Shown here in pieces: positions 53,225-59,432 of a stretch of 64,000 bases of DNA (the first letter of the stretch is position 1; every line of letters starts with the position of its first letter). The position numbers and the translations under genes were made by a program. The notes below the pieces were generated by a model that saw nothing but the letters and a program-made list of their open reading frames with translations, did no database searches and had not been told where the DNA came from. The stretch lies in contig NZ_VHIQ01000003.1 in the NCBI RefSeq assembly GCF_006494535.1, positions 310,001-374,000 on the forward strand, in the 5' to 3' direction. The stretch is from Paucihalobacter ruber (lineage in GTDB: Bacteria > Bacteroidota > Bacteroidia > Flavobacteriales > Flavobacteriaceae).

Positions 53225-54082
53225 TCAATTATTCTCAAATTTAATGTGCTTTATTAAATCTTTGAAATATTCAGGGCTCCAAATATTTAAACCATCGTCA
53301 TTTTGAATAAATCGAACAACATCCTCTTTAATACTACTAAAAGAAACTGAGTTGATTTTGGCCTCTAATAGCCCAATAATCTGTTCATTAGAAATACTAT
53401 CATCTTGCCAGTCGTTTGTGTCTTTTGCTCTAGACAGGAAATGATTTACATCTAAAGGAATTCCTTTTTTGATATACCATTCTAAATCGTACCAATCTCT
53501 TCCTTTAACTCTTTCTTTCCACTTCCTAAATAGCAGGGCATGCATTTTACCTGCAAATAAGCTTGGTTGCGTAAAACATTTCACGTAAAAAGAAAATGGA
53601 CGGAGTAATAACTTTTCTTCGGTTCTGAAATTCAATGGAGGCTGTCGATCAACTTTTATTTTTATTTTCAAAGTCTTGTTAGAACGCACTCCAGTTTCCT
53701 TGATGATATCTACCAGTACAATTTCTTGCCATATTGTTTCAGCTTTTAAAAAGGCAGAATCAATAGTTTTTTGGTTGGTTTTTTTCTTTTCGGTAATACT
53801 CACCGTTAGTCCTAATGACTTAAATTCATCCTGAATAGCTTTGAAATAGGGCTTAATTGAAAAATTTAAATCAGGTTTAAGTAAAGAAAAATCCAAATCT
53901 TCTGAATATCTATCCAATCCATAAAAAATGTGGAGAGCGGTTCCACCATAAAAAGCTGCTTTCTCAAAAAAATCGGTTCTTGATAAACCGGCTAAAGTAA
54001 TTTCTTGCATGATTTCTCGTAGTGCAGCTACTATTTCTTCCTCATTTTTAGGATTATATTCGGCTATCCAGTCTTTTATCAT
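53225..54082 (-). CDS. abiEii: AbiEii-type nucleotidyltransferase toxin
   Basis: A 285-residue DUF1814-type nucleotidyltransferase. Motif I is GGTALHIFYGLDRYSEDLDF in part: GGTAL at 46-50, R58, S60, D62 and D64 as metal ligands. Later conserved residues include KIKIKVDR, LFAGKMHALLFRKWKERVKGRDWYDLEW (quoted in parts; K for tRNA/NTP contact, RDWYDL). AbiEii toxins stop growth by nucleotidylating tRNA or another target; the type IV pairing means the antitoxin does not bind the toxin directly. The start overlaps abiEi by 4 bp. Confidence 0.9.
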   Translation of the reverse strand: MIKDWIAEYNPKNEEEIVAALREIMQEITLAGLSRTDFFEKAAFYGGTALHIFYGLDRYSEDLDFSLLKPDLNFSIKPYFKAIQDEFKSLGLTVSITEKKKTNQKTIDSAFLKAETIWQEIVLVDIIKETGVRSNKTLKIKIKVDRQPPLNFRTEEKLLLRPFSFYVKCFTQPSLFAGKMHALLFRKWKERVKGRDWYDLEWYIKKGIPLDVNHFLSRAKDTNDWQDDSISNEQIIGLLEAKINSVSFSSIKEDVVRFIQNDDGLNIWSPEYFKDLIKHIKFENN

Positions 54083-54717
54083 AATGCTTTCAAGGTTTTA
54101 ATAATCAATTCTAGACTACTTTTTTTTGGGGCATTTTCAAGCCATAATTCCATCACTTTGGTGTCTAATGTTTTTAATACCTCACTATCCATCCGAAGAT
54201 CTTGCATTAAAAATTCTCGCGTTTCCTTAATACTTCTAAGATAAATTTTGGGTGTTAGTACAACTTTATCACATAAAGCTTTTTCAGGAGAGGCAACTAA
54301 CATGGTTTGCTTAGGTGAATAGGCAATGTTCTTAATTCCATAAGAATAATAAGGCGTCTTTAATTGTTGGTAACTAAATCGGCCAATAGGCGTTTTATAT
54401 AACTTTGAAGTTTTTATAGTTACCGAACTTATTTCATAAGCTCTTTCAGGTATCATGTTCCAATAAGATAATGCGGACTCTAATGACACATAACTCGGCC
54501 CCCTAAGATGATTGGCTATTAGAAAAGGTTCCGGTGTTGGTAGGTCCATTTTAGGTCCTGTTATATAGAGTCCTCTTCTAATTGAAATAAGCTCTTTGCT
54601 CTTAAGTAGCTCACTAATTTTATCGTTTGGACTCTGATAATCACTTAGCAATTCTAAAATCAAATGCCTAGATATAGGCGCTTCAGCATATTCCTTTACG
54701 ATTGTTCTAAAATCCAT
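54079..54717 (-). CDS. abiEi: AbiEi-type antitoxin/transcriptional regulator
   Basis: A 212-residue protein with an N-terminal winged helix (YQSPNDKISELLKSKELISIRRGLYI) and a C-terminal antitoxin domain (SYVSLESALSYWNMIPE, MLVASPEKALCDKVV). AbiEi both neutralises AbiEii and represses the operon by binding two inverted repeats upstream. Exactly two such repeats are present here at 54738 and 54798. First gene of the pair; ATGA overlap with abiEii. Confidence 0.88.
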   Translation of the reverse strand: MDFRTIVKEYAEAPISRHLILELLSDYQSPNDKISELLKSKELISIRRGLYITGPKMDLPTPEPFLIANHLRGPSYVSLESALSYWNMIPERAYEISSVTIKTSKLYKTPIGRFSYQQLKTPYYSYGIKNIAYSPKQTMLVASPEKALCDKVVLTPKIYLRSIKETREFLMQDLRMDSEVLKTLDTKVMELWLENAPKKSSLELIIKTLKAL

Positions 54718-54797: not shown

Positions 54798-54824
54798 AGA
54801 TAATCGGAATTAATCCGATTATCT
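54798..54824. promoter_or_regulatory. AbiEi operator, inverted repeat 2
   Basis: AGATAATCGGA-N5-TCCGATTATCT, perfect 11-bp arms with the same core as operator 1; centres are about 63 bp apart, close to six helical turns. This suggests cooperative binding on one face of the DNA. Confidence 0.75.
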
Positions 54825-54836
54825 GCTCAAAATTAG

Positions 54837-55152
54837 AATCACGAATCAGGATTCGCTCCGCGCATCCTGACAAAGCTCCGCTTTGAAAATAGTTCAAATA
54901 AAAAAACGCTCAAGCAAGCTTGGCCCCTATTATTAAGTTATCATGATTACAATCACGAATCAGGAGTCGCTCCGCGCATCCTGACAAAGCTCCGCTTTGA
55001 AAATAGTTCAAATAAAAAAACGCTCAAGCAAGCTTGGCCCCTATTATTAAGTTATCGTGTTTACAATCACGAATCAGGATTCGCTCCGCGCATCCTGACA
55101 AAGCTCCGCTTTGAAAATAGTTCAAATAAAAAAACGCTCAAGCAAGCTTGGC
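54837..55152. repeat. 114-bp tandem repeat array, about 2.8 copies
   Basis: Copies start at 54837, 54951 and 55065. Each contains the left arm of a long terminator hairpin (AAATAGTTCAAAT...ACGC) and the segment GCTCCGCGCATCCTGACAAAG. Only the last copy still has the right arm (see the terminator at 55115), so the first two are truncated duplicates of a terminator region. Confidence 0.92.
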
Positions 55153-55173
55153 GTTTTTTTATTTGAACTATTT
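55115..55173. terminator. Very long bidirectional hairpin terminator
   Basis: A 23-bp perfect stem (AAATAGTTCAAAT + A-run + CGC against GCG + T-run + ATTTGAACTATTT) with a 13-nt loop. The A-run and T-run inside the stem give a T-tract in both directions. It is probably the parent of the truncated copies at 54837. Confidence 0.8.
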
Positions 55174-55177
55174 ATTC

Positions 55178-55191
55178 GTGACCTCGACAGG
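55178..55191. repeat. Copy of the tRNA-Arg 3' end (possible att site)
   Basis: GTGACCTCGACAGG occurs here and again at 55353-55366, where it is the 3' end of the tRNA-Arg plus flanking base. The copy lies 175 bp beyond the tRNA 3' end, on the island side. Integrative elements using tRNA 3' ends leave such repeats; 14 bp is short, so this is tentative. Confidence 0.45.
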
Positions 55192-55253
55192 GTTAACCTT
55201 GTTGATCCTGAAAAAACTCACTCGTGAAGATAGAAAGTCCGCCGGCTTTGGCC
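55186..55253 (+). repeat. 68-bp direct repeat B (right of abiE)
   Basis: Second copy of the repeat at 53135; two mismatches. It begins within the tRNA 3'-end copy and runs into the terminator at 55232. Together with repeat A it brackets abiE, as expected for an insertion or duplication event. Confidence 0.9.
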
Positions 55254-55340: not shown

Positions 55341-55353
55341 TTTCTGCATTAAG

Positions 55354-55427
55354 TGACCTCGACAGGATTCAAACCTGTAACCTTCTGAGCCGTAATCAGA
55401 TGCGCTATTCAATTGCGCCACGAGGCC
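55354..55427 (-). tRNA. tRNA-Arg (anticodon ACG)
   Basis: A complete 74-nt cloverleaf on the minus strand. Acceptor GGCCTCG pairs with CGAGGTC (one G-T), D-arm GCGC/GCGC, anticodon stem TCTGA/TCAGA with loop TTACGGC giving anticodon ACG, and T-arm ACAGG..CCTGT with TTCGAAT-type loop TTTGAATC. CCA is not encoded. The stop codon and last codons of the adjacent GIY-YIG gene lie inside its 5' half. Its 3' end faces the defence island. Confidence 0.95.
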
Positions 55428-55665
55428 TTATTTTATTTTTCAAATACTCTCTTCCAGAGCCAGTCTTGAAATATTTTTCCCTTTCAATCGCTTCTCTTTC
55501 TGAATCATATTCTTCGTGATATACCAAAACCCAAGGTCTATAACCTTTTGTGGAACTTGTTTTACCACTGTTATGCTCTTTTAACCGTTCTTCAAGCCTA
55601 TTGGTATGACCTTTATAAAGCCTTCCATCTTTTGTACTTTCTAGAACGTAAACATAATATTTCAT
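55405..55665 (-). CDS. tRNA-associated GIY-YIG protein, copy 1
   Basis: An 86-residue GIY-YIG domain protein of the UPF0213/SLX1-like small type: YYVYVLESTKDGRLYKGHTNRLEERL (quoted in part; YVY..YKG pair, catalytic Arg in LEERL) and EREAIEREKYFKTG with the metal glutamate. It is 99% identical to copy 2. Its last codons (RPRGAIE) are read from the 5' end of the tRNA-Arg gene and the stop TAG lies in the D-arm. A leader GCGCATCGGAGTT precedes the ATG and continues the tRNA sequence. It is probably part of an element that inserts in the tRNA and rebuilds it. Confidence 0.75.
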   Translation of the reverse strand: MKYYVYVLESTKDGRLYKGHTNRLEERLKEHNSGKTSSTKGYRPWVLVYHEEYDSEREAIEREKYFKTGSGREYLKNKIRPRGAIE

Positions 55666-55979
55666 AACTCCGATGCGCCCTGCCTGCCTGCCTGCCGGTC
55701 AGGCGGGCCGGCAGGCAGGTATTCAATTGCGCCACGAGGCCTTATTTTATTTTTCAAATACTCCCTTCCAGAGCCAGTCTTGAAATATTTTTCCCTTTCA
55801 ATCGCTTCTCTTTCTGAATCGTATTCTTCGTGATATACCAAAACCCAAGGTCTATAACCTTTTGTGGAACTTGTTTTACCACTGTTATGCTCTTTTAACC
55901 GTTCTTCAAGCCTATTGGTATGACCTTTATAAAGCCTTCCATCTTTTGTACTTTCTAGAACGTAAACATAATATTTCAT
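55662..55979 (-). CDS. tRNA-associated GIY-YIG protein, copy 2
   Basis: 105 residues: the first 86 equal copy 1, but the frame continues past the tRNA fragment because the intact D-arm stop is replaced by the palindrome, adding YLPAGPPDRQAGRQGASEL. The extension is read from palindrome DNA and is probably not functional. It overlaps copy 1 by 4 bp. Catalytic-type residues are all present. Same interpretation as copy 1. Confidence 0.7.
   Translation of the reverse strand: MKYYVYVLESTKDGRLYKGHTNRLEERLKEHNSGKTSSTKGYRPWVLVYHEEYDSEREAIEREKYFKTGSGREYLKNKIRPRGAIEYLPAGPPDRQAGRQGASEL
55687..55719. repeat. CCTGCCTGCCGG / CCGGCAGGCAGG palindrome, copy 1
   Basis: Perfect 12-bp arms with a 9-nt loop, part of a GC-rich REP-like element; the identical copy is at 56001-56033. 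It splits the duplicated tRNA fragment (ending AATA) from GCGCATC, which are adjacent in the intact tRNA. Confidence 0.85.
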
Positions 55980-56000
55980 AACTCCGATGCGCCCTGCCTG

Positions 56001-56033
56001 CCTGCCTGCCGGTCAGGCGGGCCGGCAGGCAGG
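56001..56033. repeat. CCTGCCTGCCGG / CCGGCAGGCAGG palindrome, copy 2
   Basis: Same sequence and context as the copy at 55687, offset exactly 314 bp. Confidence 0.85.
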
Positions 56034-56055
56034 TATTCAATTGCGCCACGAGGCC
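56034..56055 (-). other. tRNA-Arg 5' fragment (22 nt), outermost copy
   Basis: Identical to the first 22 nt of the tRNA-Arg at 55406-55427; a further copy lies at 55720-55741. The outermost copy probably marks the original 5' end of the tRNA locus before insertion, so the tRNA promoter may lie to its right. Confidence 0.8.
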
Positions 56056-56128
56056 TTATTTTTGTGGGTGCAAATATACTATTTTTATAGAACTACCGCC
56101 AAAGAATTTATTCAAAATTCAAAATGTT

Positions 56129-56136
56129 TACTTTTG
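56129..56136 (+). promoter_or_regulatory. -7 element before the sulfur-transport genes
   Basis: TACTTTTG fits TAnnTTTG, 26 bp before the ATG at 56163. No clear -33 TTG at standard spacing. Confidence 0.4.
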
Positions 56137-56162
56137 CAACGCAAAACACTTATCTCTTTATA

Positions 56163-56723
56163 ATGATTGAACTCATTTTAAATCCGTGGCCCTGGTATGT
56201 TAGCGGTCCGCTTATTGCCATTGTGATGTTTTTACTGCTTTATTTTGGACAAACTTTTGGCATGTCTTCGAACCTTAGAACTTTTTGTACCATGGGCGGT
56301 GCTCATAAATTTTCAGACTATTTCAAATTTGATTGGCGCACTCAAAAATGGAACTTAATGGTAGTTTTAGGTGCCGTAATTGGTGGTTTTATCGCAGTTT
56401 TTTTTCTCTCTAACCCTATCAATATCAACCTCAACCCCACAACTGTAAGCCAACTGGAAAATTTGGGTTTCAGCAATGCCGGCAATAGCATTTTACCTCC
56501 TGAATTGTTTGATTGGAATCAGGTGCTAAGCATTAAAGGATTGGCCATATTAATTATTGGCGGCTTTTTAGTAGGCTTCGGCACACGTTATGCCGGCGGT
56601 TGCACTTCGGGTCATGCCATTACCGGTTTGAGTAGTTTGCAATGGATTTCGCTTGTGGCCGTTATTGGATTTTTTATTGGCGGATTGGTAATGATTCACT
56701 TTATTTTTCCCTTAATTTTCTAA
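56163..56723 (+). CDS. YeeE/YedE-family sulfur transporter, first half
   Basis: 186 residues from ATG 56163 (an upstream frame from 56124 overlaps the promoter and is rejected). Multi-pass membrane protein of the sulf_transp (DUF395) family with the signature RYAGGCTSGHAITGLSS, whose cysteine relays thiosulfate or sulfane sulfur through the pore. In Bacteroidetes the family is split into two adjacent genes, as here. Four bases separate it from the second half. Confidence 0.88.
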   Translation: MIELILNPWPWYVSGPLIAIVMFLLLYFGQTFGMSSNLRTFCTMGGAHKFSDYFKFDWRTQKWNLMVVLGAVIGGFIAVFFLSNPININLNPTTVSQLENLGFSNAGNSILPPELFDWNQVLSIKGLAILIIGGFLVGFGTRYAGGCTSGHAITGLSSLQWISLVAVIGFFIGGLVMIHFIFPLIF

Positions 56724-56727
56724 ACTC

Positions 56728-57141
56728 ATGAAATATCTAAAATATTTATTGGTTGGTATTTTCTTCGGAATTGTTTTAACAAAATCTGAGGCTGTATCAT
56801 GGTACAGAATTTACGAAATGTTTAAGTTTCAATCCTTCCACATGTATGGCATCATAGGTTCTGCTGTAATTACAGGCGCTATATTGTTATTGATTACTAA
56901 AAAGTCGAAAATTAAAAACAGTAATGGTTCGGTTATCAAAGCGCCTGAAAAAGAAAAAAATATTAAGAGCGTCCTCATTGGCGGCACTATTTTTGGCCTG
57001 GGTTGGGCCTTGTGCGGTGCTTGTCCGGGACCCATGTATATTTTGGTTGGCACGGGCACCTTCACGATGCTGATTGTAATAGCGGCTGCATTATTAGGTA
57101 CGTTTTGCTACGGATTACTAAAACATAAATTACCACATTAA
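56728..57141 (+). CDS. YeeE/YedE-family sulfur transporter, second half
   Basis: 137 residues, four helices, with the pore signature GLGWALCGACPGPMYILVGTG carrying two cysteines. It complements the first half, which has GGCTSGH. Together they resemble one full YeeE. The stop TAA shares a base with the next ATG (57141), so the tauE-like gene is translationally coupled. Confidence 0.88.
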   Translation: MKYLKYLLVGIFFGIVLTKSEAVSWYRIYEMFKFQSFHMYGIIGSAVITGAILLLITKKSKIKNSNGSVIKAPEKEKNIKSVLIGGTIFGLGWALCGACPGPMYILVGTGTFTMLIVIAAALLGTFCYGLLKHKLPH

Positions 57142-57935
57142 TGGATGTCATCGAAATTTTAGGCTATGCCGGCGCCTTAATAGTAGGGCTCATACTTGGA
57201 CTGATTGGCGGCGGCGGCTCAATTTTAACCGTGCCTTTGCTGGTGTATATTTTAGGATATAACCCCGTAACTGCAACAGCTTATTCTCTCTTTGTGGTAG
57301 GTTCGTCTTCATTGTTTGGATCTATTCAGAAATTGCGAAAAGGATTGGCGGATTTAAAAATAGGACTCGCCTTTTCGTTTCCATCTTTTATTGCGGTTTA
57401 CCTTTCAAGACGTTTTCTGGTACCTAATTTACCGGAAGTTTTCTTCAATATTCAAGATTTTCAACTTACCAGAGATGCCGCTATCATGACCTTTTTTGCC
57501 ATCGTCATGCTCATGGCATCTTACTCGATGATTAAAAATAAAAAAGACAACGCAGTAATTAGCAACACCGTTCAACCTTATTATAAAACTTTTATTCAAG
57601 GACTCATTATTGGAACTGTTACAGGAATTATTGGCGCAGGTGGCGGATTTTTATACGTTCCGGCATTGGTGCTTTGGGCCAAATTACCCATGAAAAAAGC
57701 GGTTGGCACATCGCTGATCATCATTACCATCAATTCGTTAATTGGTTTTACCGGCGATGTAAAAACATTAGAGATCGATTGGACCTTTTTACTCATTTTT
57801 TCGGGCATTACCATTTTAGGTATTTTAATTGGAGGTATACTTTCTAAATACATTCAAAGTAAACACCTTAAAAAAGGTTTTGGCTGGTTTACACTTATCA
57901 TGGCTATCTACATTATTTACAAAGAACTACAATAA
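57141..57935 (+). CDS. TauE/SafE-family sulfite/organosulfur exporter
   Basis: A 264-residue, eight-helix protein. Both TauE repeats start with a glycine-rich turn: GLIGGGGSILTVPLLVY and GIIGAGGGFLYVPALVLW. Family members export sulfite, sulfoacetate or related anions. In this operon it would remove sulfite produced by the persulfide dioxygenase-like enzyme encoded next. It is coupled to the second YeeE half; a clear operator-like palindrome follows 2 bp after its stop. Confidence 0.88.
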   Translation: MDVIEILGYAGALIVGLILGLIGGGGSILTVPLLVYILGYNPVTATAYSLFVVGSSSLFGSIQKLRKGLADLKIGLAFSFPSFIAVYLSRRFLVPNLPEVFFNIQDFQLTRDAAIMTFFAIVMLMASYSMIKNKKDNAVISNTVQPYYKTFIQGLIIGTVTGIIGAGGGFLYVPALVLWAKLPMKKAVGTSLIIITINSLIGFTGDVKTLEIDWTFLLIFSGITILGILIGGILSKYIQSKHLKKGFGWFTLIMAIYIIYKELQ

Positions 57936-57937
57936 GC

Positions 57938-57955
57938 TTGTAACATAAGTTACAA
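57938..57955. promoter_or_regulatory. TTGTAAC-ATAA-GTTACAA operator
   Basis: A perfect 7-bp inverted repeat with a 4-bp centre, 20 bp upstream of the -7 element for the MBL-rhodanese gene. The half-site form fits a Crp/Fnr-type regulator, a class that often controls sulfur and redox genes. No such regulator is in the window, so the pairing is inference. Confidence 0.6.
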
Positions 57956-57974
57956 AAATGCGCACTAAATTTTG

Positions 57975-57982
57975 TAACTTTG
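57975..57982 (+). promoter_or_regulatory. -7 promoter element for the MBL-rhodanese gene
   Basis: TAACTTTG matches TAnnTTTG exactly and lies 43 bp before the ATG at 58026. The TTGTAAC palindrome lies upstream, in a position suitable for activation. Confidence 0.55.
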
Positions 57983-58025
57983 TTAGGACTGCATTGTTTG
58001 TTAGTTAACCTTTAAAAAAGAATTT

Positions 58026-59432
58026 ATGAAAATTGAGCAATTATACACAGGATGTTTAGCGCAAGGCGCTTATTATATTGAATCGGAAGGTGAAGTTGCC
58101 ATTATTGACCCTTTAAGAGAAACGCAACAATACATCGATAAAACGAAAGCAGAAAATGCCAAAATTAAATATGTGTTTGAAACCCATTTTCATGCCGACT
58201 TTGTATCGGGGCACATTGATTTAGCCAAAAAAACAGGTGCTACCATTGTTTTTGGTCCGGGTGCTAAAACCGACTACAATATTCATGAAGCCAAAGACGG
58301 TGAAATTTTTGAACTAGGCAATATCAAAATTAAAGTATTGCACACGCCCGGTCATACATTAGAATCGACAACCTATTTGTTAATTGATGAAAATGGAAAA
58401 GACCACGCCATATTTTCGGGCGACACCTTATTTTTAGGGGATGTTGGTCGTCCAGATTTGGCTATTAAATCTGATTTAACCAAAGAAGATCTGGCCGGTA
58501 TGTTATTTGAATCGCTTCGCCATAAAATCATGCCTCTGGCAGACGATGTGATTGTTTATCCGGCGCATGGTGCCGGTTCGGCCTGTGGTAAAAACCTTAG
58601 CAAAGAAACGGTTGGTGTCCTTGGCGAACAGAAAAAAACCAACTACGCCTTACGCGCCGATATGACCAAAGAAGAATTCGTCAAAGAAGTATTGGATGGC
58701 ATTGCGCCACCACCGCAATATTTTGCCAAAAATGCCATGATGAATAAAATGGGATACAGCAGTTTTGAAACTGTTCTCGAAAAAGGCAATGTACCACTAA
58801 CGCCCGAAGACTTTGAAGCCCTGGCCAATCATGAGTCGGCTTTGGTATTAGATGTACGCCATCAAAACGATTTTGTAAAAGCACACATACCCAATTCGAT
58901 ATTTATTGGATTAGACGGACAATTTGCGCCATGGGTTGGTGCCTTAATCACCGACATTAAACAACCTATTTTACTGGTGGCACCTGAAGGAAGAGCCCAG
59001 GAGGCGGTTACCAGATTATCGAGGGTTGGTTACGACAATACACTGGGATATCTTGAAGGCGGTATTGAAGCCTGGAAACAGGCGGGAAAAGACATTGAAA
59101 CATTAGCATCTATTTCGGCTCAAGAATTTGAGACTAAGGTGAAATCAGGTGATACCAATATATTAGACGTTCGTAAGGATGGTGAATATATATCGTCTCA
59201 TATTGAAGGTGCACAACATTTTGCTTTAGATTTTATCAATGAGCAAATGACTGAAATAGACAAAGACAACACCTATCACATCCACTGCGCCGGAGGATAT
59301 CGTTCGGTAATTGCGGCGTCCATATTAAAAGCCAGAGGTTATAATAACCTGGTTGATGTGGCAGGCGGATTTGCAGCCATTAAAGAAACCAAAATTCCTG
59401 TAACGGCTTATGTTTGTCCGTCGACGCTTTAA
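58026..59432 (+). CDS. MBL-fold persulfide dioxygenase-like enzyme with two rhodanese domains
   Basis: A 468-residue three-domain protein. The N-terminal metallo-beta-lactamase domain has THFHADFVSGH (metal ligands), HTPGHTLEST, FSGDTLFLGDVGRPDL and PAHGAGSACGK, the persulfide dioxygenase/Blh pattern with one iron. Rhodanese 1 (about 265-355) has LVAPEGRAQ, with no cysteine at the active site. Rhodanese 2 (about 365-460) has the active IHCAGGYRSV. It likely oxidises glutathione- or protein-bound persulfide to sulfite, which TauE would export. Confidence 0.9.
   Translation: MKIEQLYTGCLAQGAYYIESEGEVAIIDPLRETQQYIDKTKAENAKIKYVFETHFHADFVSGHIDLAKKTGATIVFGPGAKTDYNIHEAKDGEIFELGNIKIKVLHTPGHTLESTTYLLIDENGKDHAIFSGDTLFLGDVGRPDLAIKSDLTKEDLAGMLFESLRHKIMPLADDVIVYPAHGAGSACGKNLSKETVGVLGEQKKTNYALRADMTKEEFVKEVLDGIAPPPQYFAKNAMMNKMGYSSFETVLEKGNVPLTPEDFEALANHESALVLDVRHQNDFVKAHIPNSIFIGLDGQFAPWVGALITDIKQPILLVAPEGRAQEAVTRLSRVGYDNTLGYLEGGIEAWKQAGKDIETLASISAQEFETKVKSGDTNILDVRKDGEYISSHIEGAQHFALDFINEQMTEIDKDNTYHIHCAGGYRSVIAASILKARGYNNLVDVAGGFAAIKETKIPVTAYVCPSTL

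Follow-up and report, generated by a model that had tools for sequence, protein, structure and literature searches.

Two near-identical copies of a 314-bp unit carrying a GIY-YIG nuclease gene were found inside a tRNA-Arg(ACG) gene of Paucihalobacter ruber, each carrying a spare 5' piece of that gene so that an intact tRNA is left behind. The same arrangement recurred in many tRNA genes across several bacterial phyla, which looks like a widespread family of very small selfish DNA elements, and we could not find it described in the open-access literature searched. The units are best read as homing-like elements whose nuclease would cut tRNA genes at the position where a palindrome now sits, although both the cutting and the movement are inferred.

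Results

Structure of the units in P. ruber

The window analyzed was a stretch of 64,000 nucleotides (NCBI RefSeq assembly GCF_006494535.1, contig NZ_VHIQ01000003.1, positions 310,001 to 374,000 of the forward strand). A minus-strand reading and a repeat search revealed two direct units of 314 bp that differed at 2 of 314 positions, both silent, followed by an intact tRNA-Arg(ACG) identified by ARAGORN and Rfam (60.7 bits) (Table 1). Each unit consists of tRNA nt 1–22, a 41-nt GC-rich palindrome, the sequence GCGCATC (tRNA nt 23–29), GGAGTT and then the ATG of a GIY-YIG gene (Pfam PF01541; E = 5.7e-17 and 1e-16; 62.2 bits against a cut-off of 22.6), which is the only gene in the unit, with no integrase and no Y1 (TnpA-like) transposase. 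The gene next to the tRNA ends K-I-R-P-R-G-A-I-E-stop, read from the tRNA's own 5' end, with the TAG stop in the D-loop, whereas the distal copy reads on through the next pseudo-tRNA and palindrome. The arrangement is far beyond chance, as the 29-nt block around the tRNA 5' end occurs three times at exactly 314-bp spacing. No intron family was detected by Rfam at gathering score between 54500 and 56500, where only the tRNA was found. As this tRNA was the only full match found in the genome, the restored copy is probably needed by the cell.

Table 1. Features of the tRNA-Arg(ACG) locus and its surroundings, in window coordinates.
Feature	Coordinates	Strand	Remarks
Probable tRNA promoter, Bacteroidota type (-33/-7 consensus)	56071..56103	-	TTTG at 56103-56100, 21-nt spacer, TATATTTG at 56078-56071; upstream of the first pseudo-tRNA; conserved in the empty site of G001 (sequence, and alignment with the empty site)
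Unit 1	56055-55742	-	314 bp
Unit 1, pseudo-tRNA-Arg nt 1-22	56034..56055	-	Original 5' end of the tRNA gene
Unit 1, palindrome	55993..56033	-	41 nt, GC-rich, between tRNA nt 22 and 23
Unit 1, GCGCATC	55986..55992	-	tRNA nt 23-29
Unit 1, GIY-YIG gene	55662..55979	-	105-aa frame, reads into the next pseudo-tRNA and palindrome
Unit 2	55741-55428	-	314 bp
Unit 2, pseudo-tRNA-Arg nt 1-22	55720..55741	-	
Unit 2, palindrome	55679..55719	-	41 nt
Unit 2, GCGCATC	55672..55678	-	tRNA nt 23-29
Unit 2, GIY-YIG gene	55405..55665	-	86 aa, last codons and stop inside the tRNA gene
Intact, restored tRNA-Arg(ACG)	55353..55427	-	Only full match to this tRNA found in the genome
Remnant of the tRNA-Arg 3' end	55178..55196	-	17 of 19 nt (next best in 64 kb, 13 of 19), about 160 nt behind the intact tRNA; followed by CACGAATAAATA, a flank also seen behind tRNA-Arg(TCG) in relatives; probable scar of a GIY-less 3'-side unit
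Three tandem direct repeats	54818-55159		114 nt each, 89-93% alike, with terminator-like hairpins, just beyond the tRNA array on its 3' side
Two adjacent genes	53225-54717	-	Resemble, by eye, an AbiEii/AbiEi-type toxin-antitoxin pair
Divergent genes	56124-59432	+	Resemble sulfur transport and handling genes (YeeE-like membrane proteins, TauE-like protein, metallo-beta-lactamase/rhodanese)

The preliminary description of the locus, made from sequence alone, was correct base for base in what it observed. Its interpretation, an insertion after about nt 29 of the tRNA by a homing element that restores the tRNA 5' part and had recently been amplified in tandem, was partly supported. The insertion with restoration of the 5' part and the recent tandem amplification (2 of 314 differences) held, and neither of the two conditions set beforehand as refuting it (no empty site in related strains, or no tRNA overlap of similar GIY-YIG genes) was fulfilled. 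The constant breakpoint is, however, nt 22|23, where the palindrome sits, and nt 29 is only where this copy was truncated. In addition, mirror-image and GIY-less units are not covered by a 5' picture, and homing by nuclease cutting is plausible but remains inferred, as the restored tRNA would still be a target.

Empty and filled sites

The other genome examined from the same genus (G001; genomes and loci are hereafter denoted by G and L numbers) displayed the same divergent transporter gene, the same promoter and the same tRNA-Arg(ACG) with no unit between them, when aligned base by base. Comparison was restricted to the 5' side, as its contig ends just behind the tRNA. In Flavobacteriaceae, tRNA-Arg(TCG) lies directly behind yqeY. 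Of 97 such loci read, 95 had the tRNA, of which 87 were empty and eight held one to three GIY units, although seven of the 97 were added because they were known carriers and 8 of 97 is thus not a frequency. Among the 116 genomes with a yqeY hit at least seven were filled, six upstream of the tRNA (G019, G020, G062, G097, G108, G135) and one downstream of it (G063, by coordinates), so both forms occur at this one site. Alleles with and without the gene at the same site, a criterion for a homing endonuclease gene, were thus present both here and at tRNA-Arg(ACG). The P. ruber genome is empty at this second site (L278), but carries another GIY-YIG unit (L004; contig C1:337928-341128) behind the initiator-type tRNA-Met, with a decayed pseudo-tRNA holding two TCCGCC..GGCGGA hairpins.

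Distribution across tRNA genes and hosts

A scan of one genome per species with the window protein returned 80 loci. Of 93 GIY domains in these, 88 lie within 250 nt of a tRNA gene or tRNA fragment on the same strand and one on the opposite strand. Of the 88, 79 were supported by ARAGORN alone, which is the independent figure because the fragment library was built from the same loci. A rough estimate from about 40 tRNA genes in 3.5 Mb is that well under 1% of positions would satisfy this by chance. Isotypes with a gene called were Arg (ACG, TCG, TCT, CCT, CCG, GCG), Met, Ala, Asn, Ser, Leu, Pro, Val and single cases of others. Named hosts were mainly Bacteroidota, with single or few cases from Ignavibacteriota, Chlorobiota, Neomarinimicrobiota (Fidelibacterota), WOR-3 (Caldifarciminota), Omnitrophota, Cloacimonadota, Elusimicrobiota and Parcubacteria. 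Many of these are metagenome bins, which can be contaminated, and not every one has the tRNA, with none in reach at L172 (Cloacimonadota). Eight tandem GIY-YIG units of about 364 bp lie behind a tRNA-Met-like sequence that ARAGORN did not call (L064; G197 C34:5500-11300). At L014, L118 and L185 contigs end inside or right next to such tRNA units or tRNA sites, so draft assemblies probably undercount these arrays. No specific vehicle was found, as searches with one query, at the sensitivity used, gave no relative in phages or viral contigs, and plasmids held only generic ones.

Lower-scoring GIY-YIG genes of the UPF0213 type mostly had no tRNA neighbor, indicating that tRNA association is a property of certain clades (7 changes on the nuclease tree against 32 in shuffles). 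tRNA isotype also followed the nuclease tree (22 changes against 45 in shuffles, minimum 41), as did the Arg anticodon (21 against 46) and the position of the insert (39 against 51.6, minimum 47; within Arg type A, 10 against 17.8). Host phylum showed no detectable signal (9 against 9.9), although most non-Bacteroidota labels are singletons and this test has little power. Branch support on the tree was uneven.

Anatomy of the family

Two forms were distinguished. In type A, as in the window, the order is pseudo-tRNA, GIY gene, intact tRNA, with the 5' part restored. In type B the order is intact tRNA, often a terminator-like hairpin, GIY gene and a pseudo-tRNA that keeps the 3' end, with the 3' part restored. 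In 108 of 123 loci the pseudo-tRNA has a clean insert of 10–90 nt, and in type A 58 inserts are exactly between nt 22 and 23, or 21 and 22 in tRNAs one nucleotide shorter. Other positions are 8|9, 9|10, 14–17, 32|33, 50|51 and 55|56, or replacement of the anticodon arm. The pseudo-tRNA may run to full length (L110, L114, L144) or stop at about nt 29. Inserts are often strong palindromes, with a stem of 8 bp or more in 44 of 109 pseudo-tRNA zones, compared to 2% of shuffles and 4 of 109 intact copies, a measure that misses imperfect hairpins. One pseudo-tRNA can hold two or three palindromes (L115, L137, L144).

In 48 single-unit type A loci the identity of the two tRNA copies begins exactly at tRNA nt 1, with a median of one shared upstream base. 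This is expected if the element carries a tRNA piece, and a target-site duplication of random extent was rejected on this basis. Acceptor-stem mismatches gave little sign of a foreign, element-borne 5' part, as 50 of 80 pseudo 5' parts are identical to the intact copy over nt 1–17 and most others differ only because a palindrome sits earlier, with only L077 hinting at it. Unrelated units were stacked in one tRNA gene at L116 (45% identity) and L119 (38% identity). Decay within arrays, where repeated insertion predicts intact units next to the tRNA and decayed distal ones, was in the predicted direction but not significant (about 8 to 4 after removing double counts).

Units without a GIY gene were found in tRNA-Thr, -Gly and -Arg genes. 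At the yqeY site G137 (L245) has three tandem 57–58-bp units of tRNA nt 1–17 plus a hairpin. G213 has two tandem units behind tRNA-Thr(GGT) and two behind tRNA-Gly(GCC), with the same palindrome as its GIY-bearing tRNA-Arg units, and G019 and G097 have single ones at the same two tRNAs. G143 has a palindrome behind tRNA-Phe with a diverged, less certain remnant.

The commonest palindrome occurs at a few to a dozen places in several carrier genomes (11–12 exact copies in G097 and G213). It was not detected in six same-genus or same-family genomes in which few or no relatives of the protein were found (G001, G021, G024, G026, G031, G035) or in one of another family (G045). These genomes were chosen by hand as a contrast and some of the seven do have distant GIY-YIG genes, so this is suggestive only. 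G183 has 28 copies of the second type, mostly in non-tRNA repeats, where they lie in pairs 215–330 bp apart inside intergenic tandem repeats (L304, L305, L307, L309) with no GIY-YIG gene and no tRNA gene called near them. In G019, G063 and G208 nearly all copies found by the two patterns lie in a tRNA unit.

The nuclease

The catalytic residues Y6 (0.99), Y17 (1.00), G19, R27 (0.98), H31 and E63 (0.99) are 98–100% conserved in 131 tRNA-associated proteins, and dN/dS (omega) was about 0.2 over 59 pairs, indicating purifying selection. The proteins, of about 79–105 aa, are almost entirely the GIY-YIG domain, with no C-terminal DNA-binding region. The best sequence matches in the PDB were UPF0213 proteins (1zg2, 1ywl) and no NCBIfam family was matched. 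An AlphaFold model (pLDDT 94) resembled the GIY-YIG domains of SLX1, I-TevI, UPF0213 and UvrC at Z 5.3–7.6, a middling range that shows a shared fold only.

Discussion

The analysis established that a unit is a segment inserted in a tRNA gene. In the 5'-side form, palindrome, short tRNA piece, GIY-YIG gene and tRNA nt 1–22 are placed exactly between tRNA nt 22 and 23, so the promoter-side copy becomes an interrupted pseudo-tRNA and the far copy is an intact tRNA, while in the 3'-side form the order is mirrored. What drives this is inferred. We suggest, as the simplest driver, that the GIY-YIG protein cuts the uninterrupted tRNA gene at or near the place where its own pseudo-tRNA carries the palindrome, which would split that site so that the element copy is not cut. 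The break would be repaired by recombination with an element copy through the tRNA pieces on either side of the palindrome, and selection would keep only products in which one whole tRNA remains. Both forms are what a single exchange between a tRNA gene and a circle or array bearing a palindrome-interrupted tRNA would give, with exchange left of the palindrome giving type A and right of it type B. In this view the restored tRNA is still a target, so units can stack in tandem and unrelated units can enter the same gene, as the stacking at L116 and L119 shows. The tRNA promoter is kept upstream and probably transcribes the array, and GIY-less units would be non-autonomous passengers served in trans. 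A precedent is phage SegB, a GIY-YIG homing endonuclease that cuts within tRNA genes and whose activity is needed for tandem amplification of a tRNA-containing segment through recombination (PMC13096335).

We hold this reading with moderate confidence, as cleavage, excision and transfer are all inferred from sequence. A single bare GIY-YIG domain leaves sequence specificity unexplained, and its nearest solved relatives by sequence (UPF0213, SLX1) are not homing enzymes. An uninterrupted tRNA remains in carriers and should stay cleavable, with no account of how carriers tolerate this. The absence of a detected vehicle, the non-significant decay polarity, the partial reliance of the cross-phylum spread on metagenome bins and the palindromes found away from tRNAs in some genomes also weigh against it.

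The main alternative, which we consider unlikely, is that the palindrome is the real mobile element (REP-like) and the GIY-YIG protein its mobilizing nuclease (RAYT-like), putting palindromes into tRNA genes and some other sites, with the tRNA duplication kept only because cells that lose the tRNA die. The dispersed palindromes, their absence from the contrast genomes, the pseudo-tRNAs with two or three palindromes and the hairpins of the GIY-less units are consistent with this, and SLX1-like enzymes act on branched DNA. The palindromes could therefore be partners with a life of their own. However, nearly all copies found in G019, G063 and G208 lie in a tRNA unit, most dispersed copies elsewhere have no GIY gene or tRNA next to them, and palindrome sequences differ between units while the GIY gene and tRNA architecture stay. 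It is somewhat more doubtful still that a small housekeeping-type GIY-YIG gene rode into a tRNA duplication, is kept for another function (repair) and amplifies only by unequal crossing-over, the tRNA link being a favored transcription site. Near-identical tandem units could arise in this way, the protein resembles UPF0213/SLX1 nucleases and the decay polarity was not significant. On the other hand, independent insertion in many isotypes with the same 22|23 breakpoint, the mirror-image forms, the stacking of unrelated units, the patchy presence at a syntenic site and a nuclease tree followed by tRNA identity rather than host phylum all speak against a passive resident.

Two further possibilities appear very unlikely. 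The protein could act on tRNA itself, as a toxin or regulator, with the pseudo-tRNA hairpin transcript as its decoy or control element, which would fit the shared strand in essentially every case and probable co-transcription from the tRNA promoter. GIY-YIG enzymes are, however, DNA nucleases as far as is known, pseudo-tRNAs are usually truncated on one side and cannot fold as tRNA, and GIY-less tandem units and empty sites fit DNA mobility better. Alternatively, the unit could protect the tRNA gene from integrative elements and phages, for which tRNA genes are standard attachment sites, and the nuclease is under purifying selection, but the intact tRNA, and hence the attachment site, is left in place and many units are decayed.

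The nearest arrangement found in the literature searched is segB of phage T4, which lies between tRNA genes (PMC2988022). SegB and other free-standing GIY-YIG homing endonucleases of T-even phages (PMC13096335, PMC2988022) share the GIY-YIG gene next to tRNA genes, and the essential tyrosine and glycine of SegB (Y17/G19) are at the same numbered positions here. SegB is, however, a phage protein acting in tRNA arrays with no particular isotype, whereas these units are chromosomal, have only the catalytic domain, sit in one tRNA gene at a fixed position, carry a palindrome-interrupted pseudo-tRNA, restore the tRNA and come with GIY-less relatives. Integrative elements attached at tRNA genes (tyrosine-recombinase islands, prophages) also carry a piece of the tRNA gene and restore a working tRNA, but here there is no recombinase, a unit is about 0.3 kb, the joint is in the D-, anticodon or T-loop region and often the 5' part is restored. 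REP palindromes with RAYT transposases and Rickettsia palindromic elements are likewise short GC-rich palindromes dispersed in the genome and also lodged in genes, but the protein associated here is a GIY-YIG nuclease rather than a Y1 transposase, and the palindrome lies inside a duplicated tRNA. UPF0213 (YazA/YhbQ) proteins share a single GIY-YIG domain of about 80–100 aa, but the lower-scoring, generic relatives found here mostly lack tRNA neighbors. Group I introns with GIY-YIG homing endonucleases (I-TevI) share the logic of a nuclease gene inside its target without loss of target function, but here there is no intron and no splicing, and function is restored at DNA level by a duplicated tRNA part.

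We regard these units as homing-like GIY-YIG elements, with a fair chance that they deserve a class of their own. A bolder reading, possible but tentative and somewhat less likely than not, is a previously unrecognized class of minimal mobile elements of about 0.1–0.4 kb, autonomous (GIY-YIG) and non-autonomous, that insert at fixed positions in tRNA genes using a palindrome as one end and a tRNA part as the other, spread between bacterial phyla, and are moved by an 80-residue single-domain nuclease, possibly through cruciform cleavage rather than classic homing.

tRNA genes are essential, and a selfish element that can enter them must solve the problem of not killing its host. This family appears to solve it at DNA level with about 300 bp and one small protein, in many tRNA isotypes and several phyla. 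It offers a natural series of nucleases each tied to a tRNA type, makes the origin of tandem tRNA pseudogenes and of some palindromic repeats testable, accounts for GIY-YIG proteins whose C-terminus is translated tRNA sequence, and gives a chromosomal counterpart to the phage SegB system.
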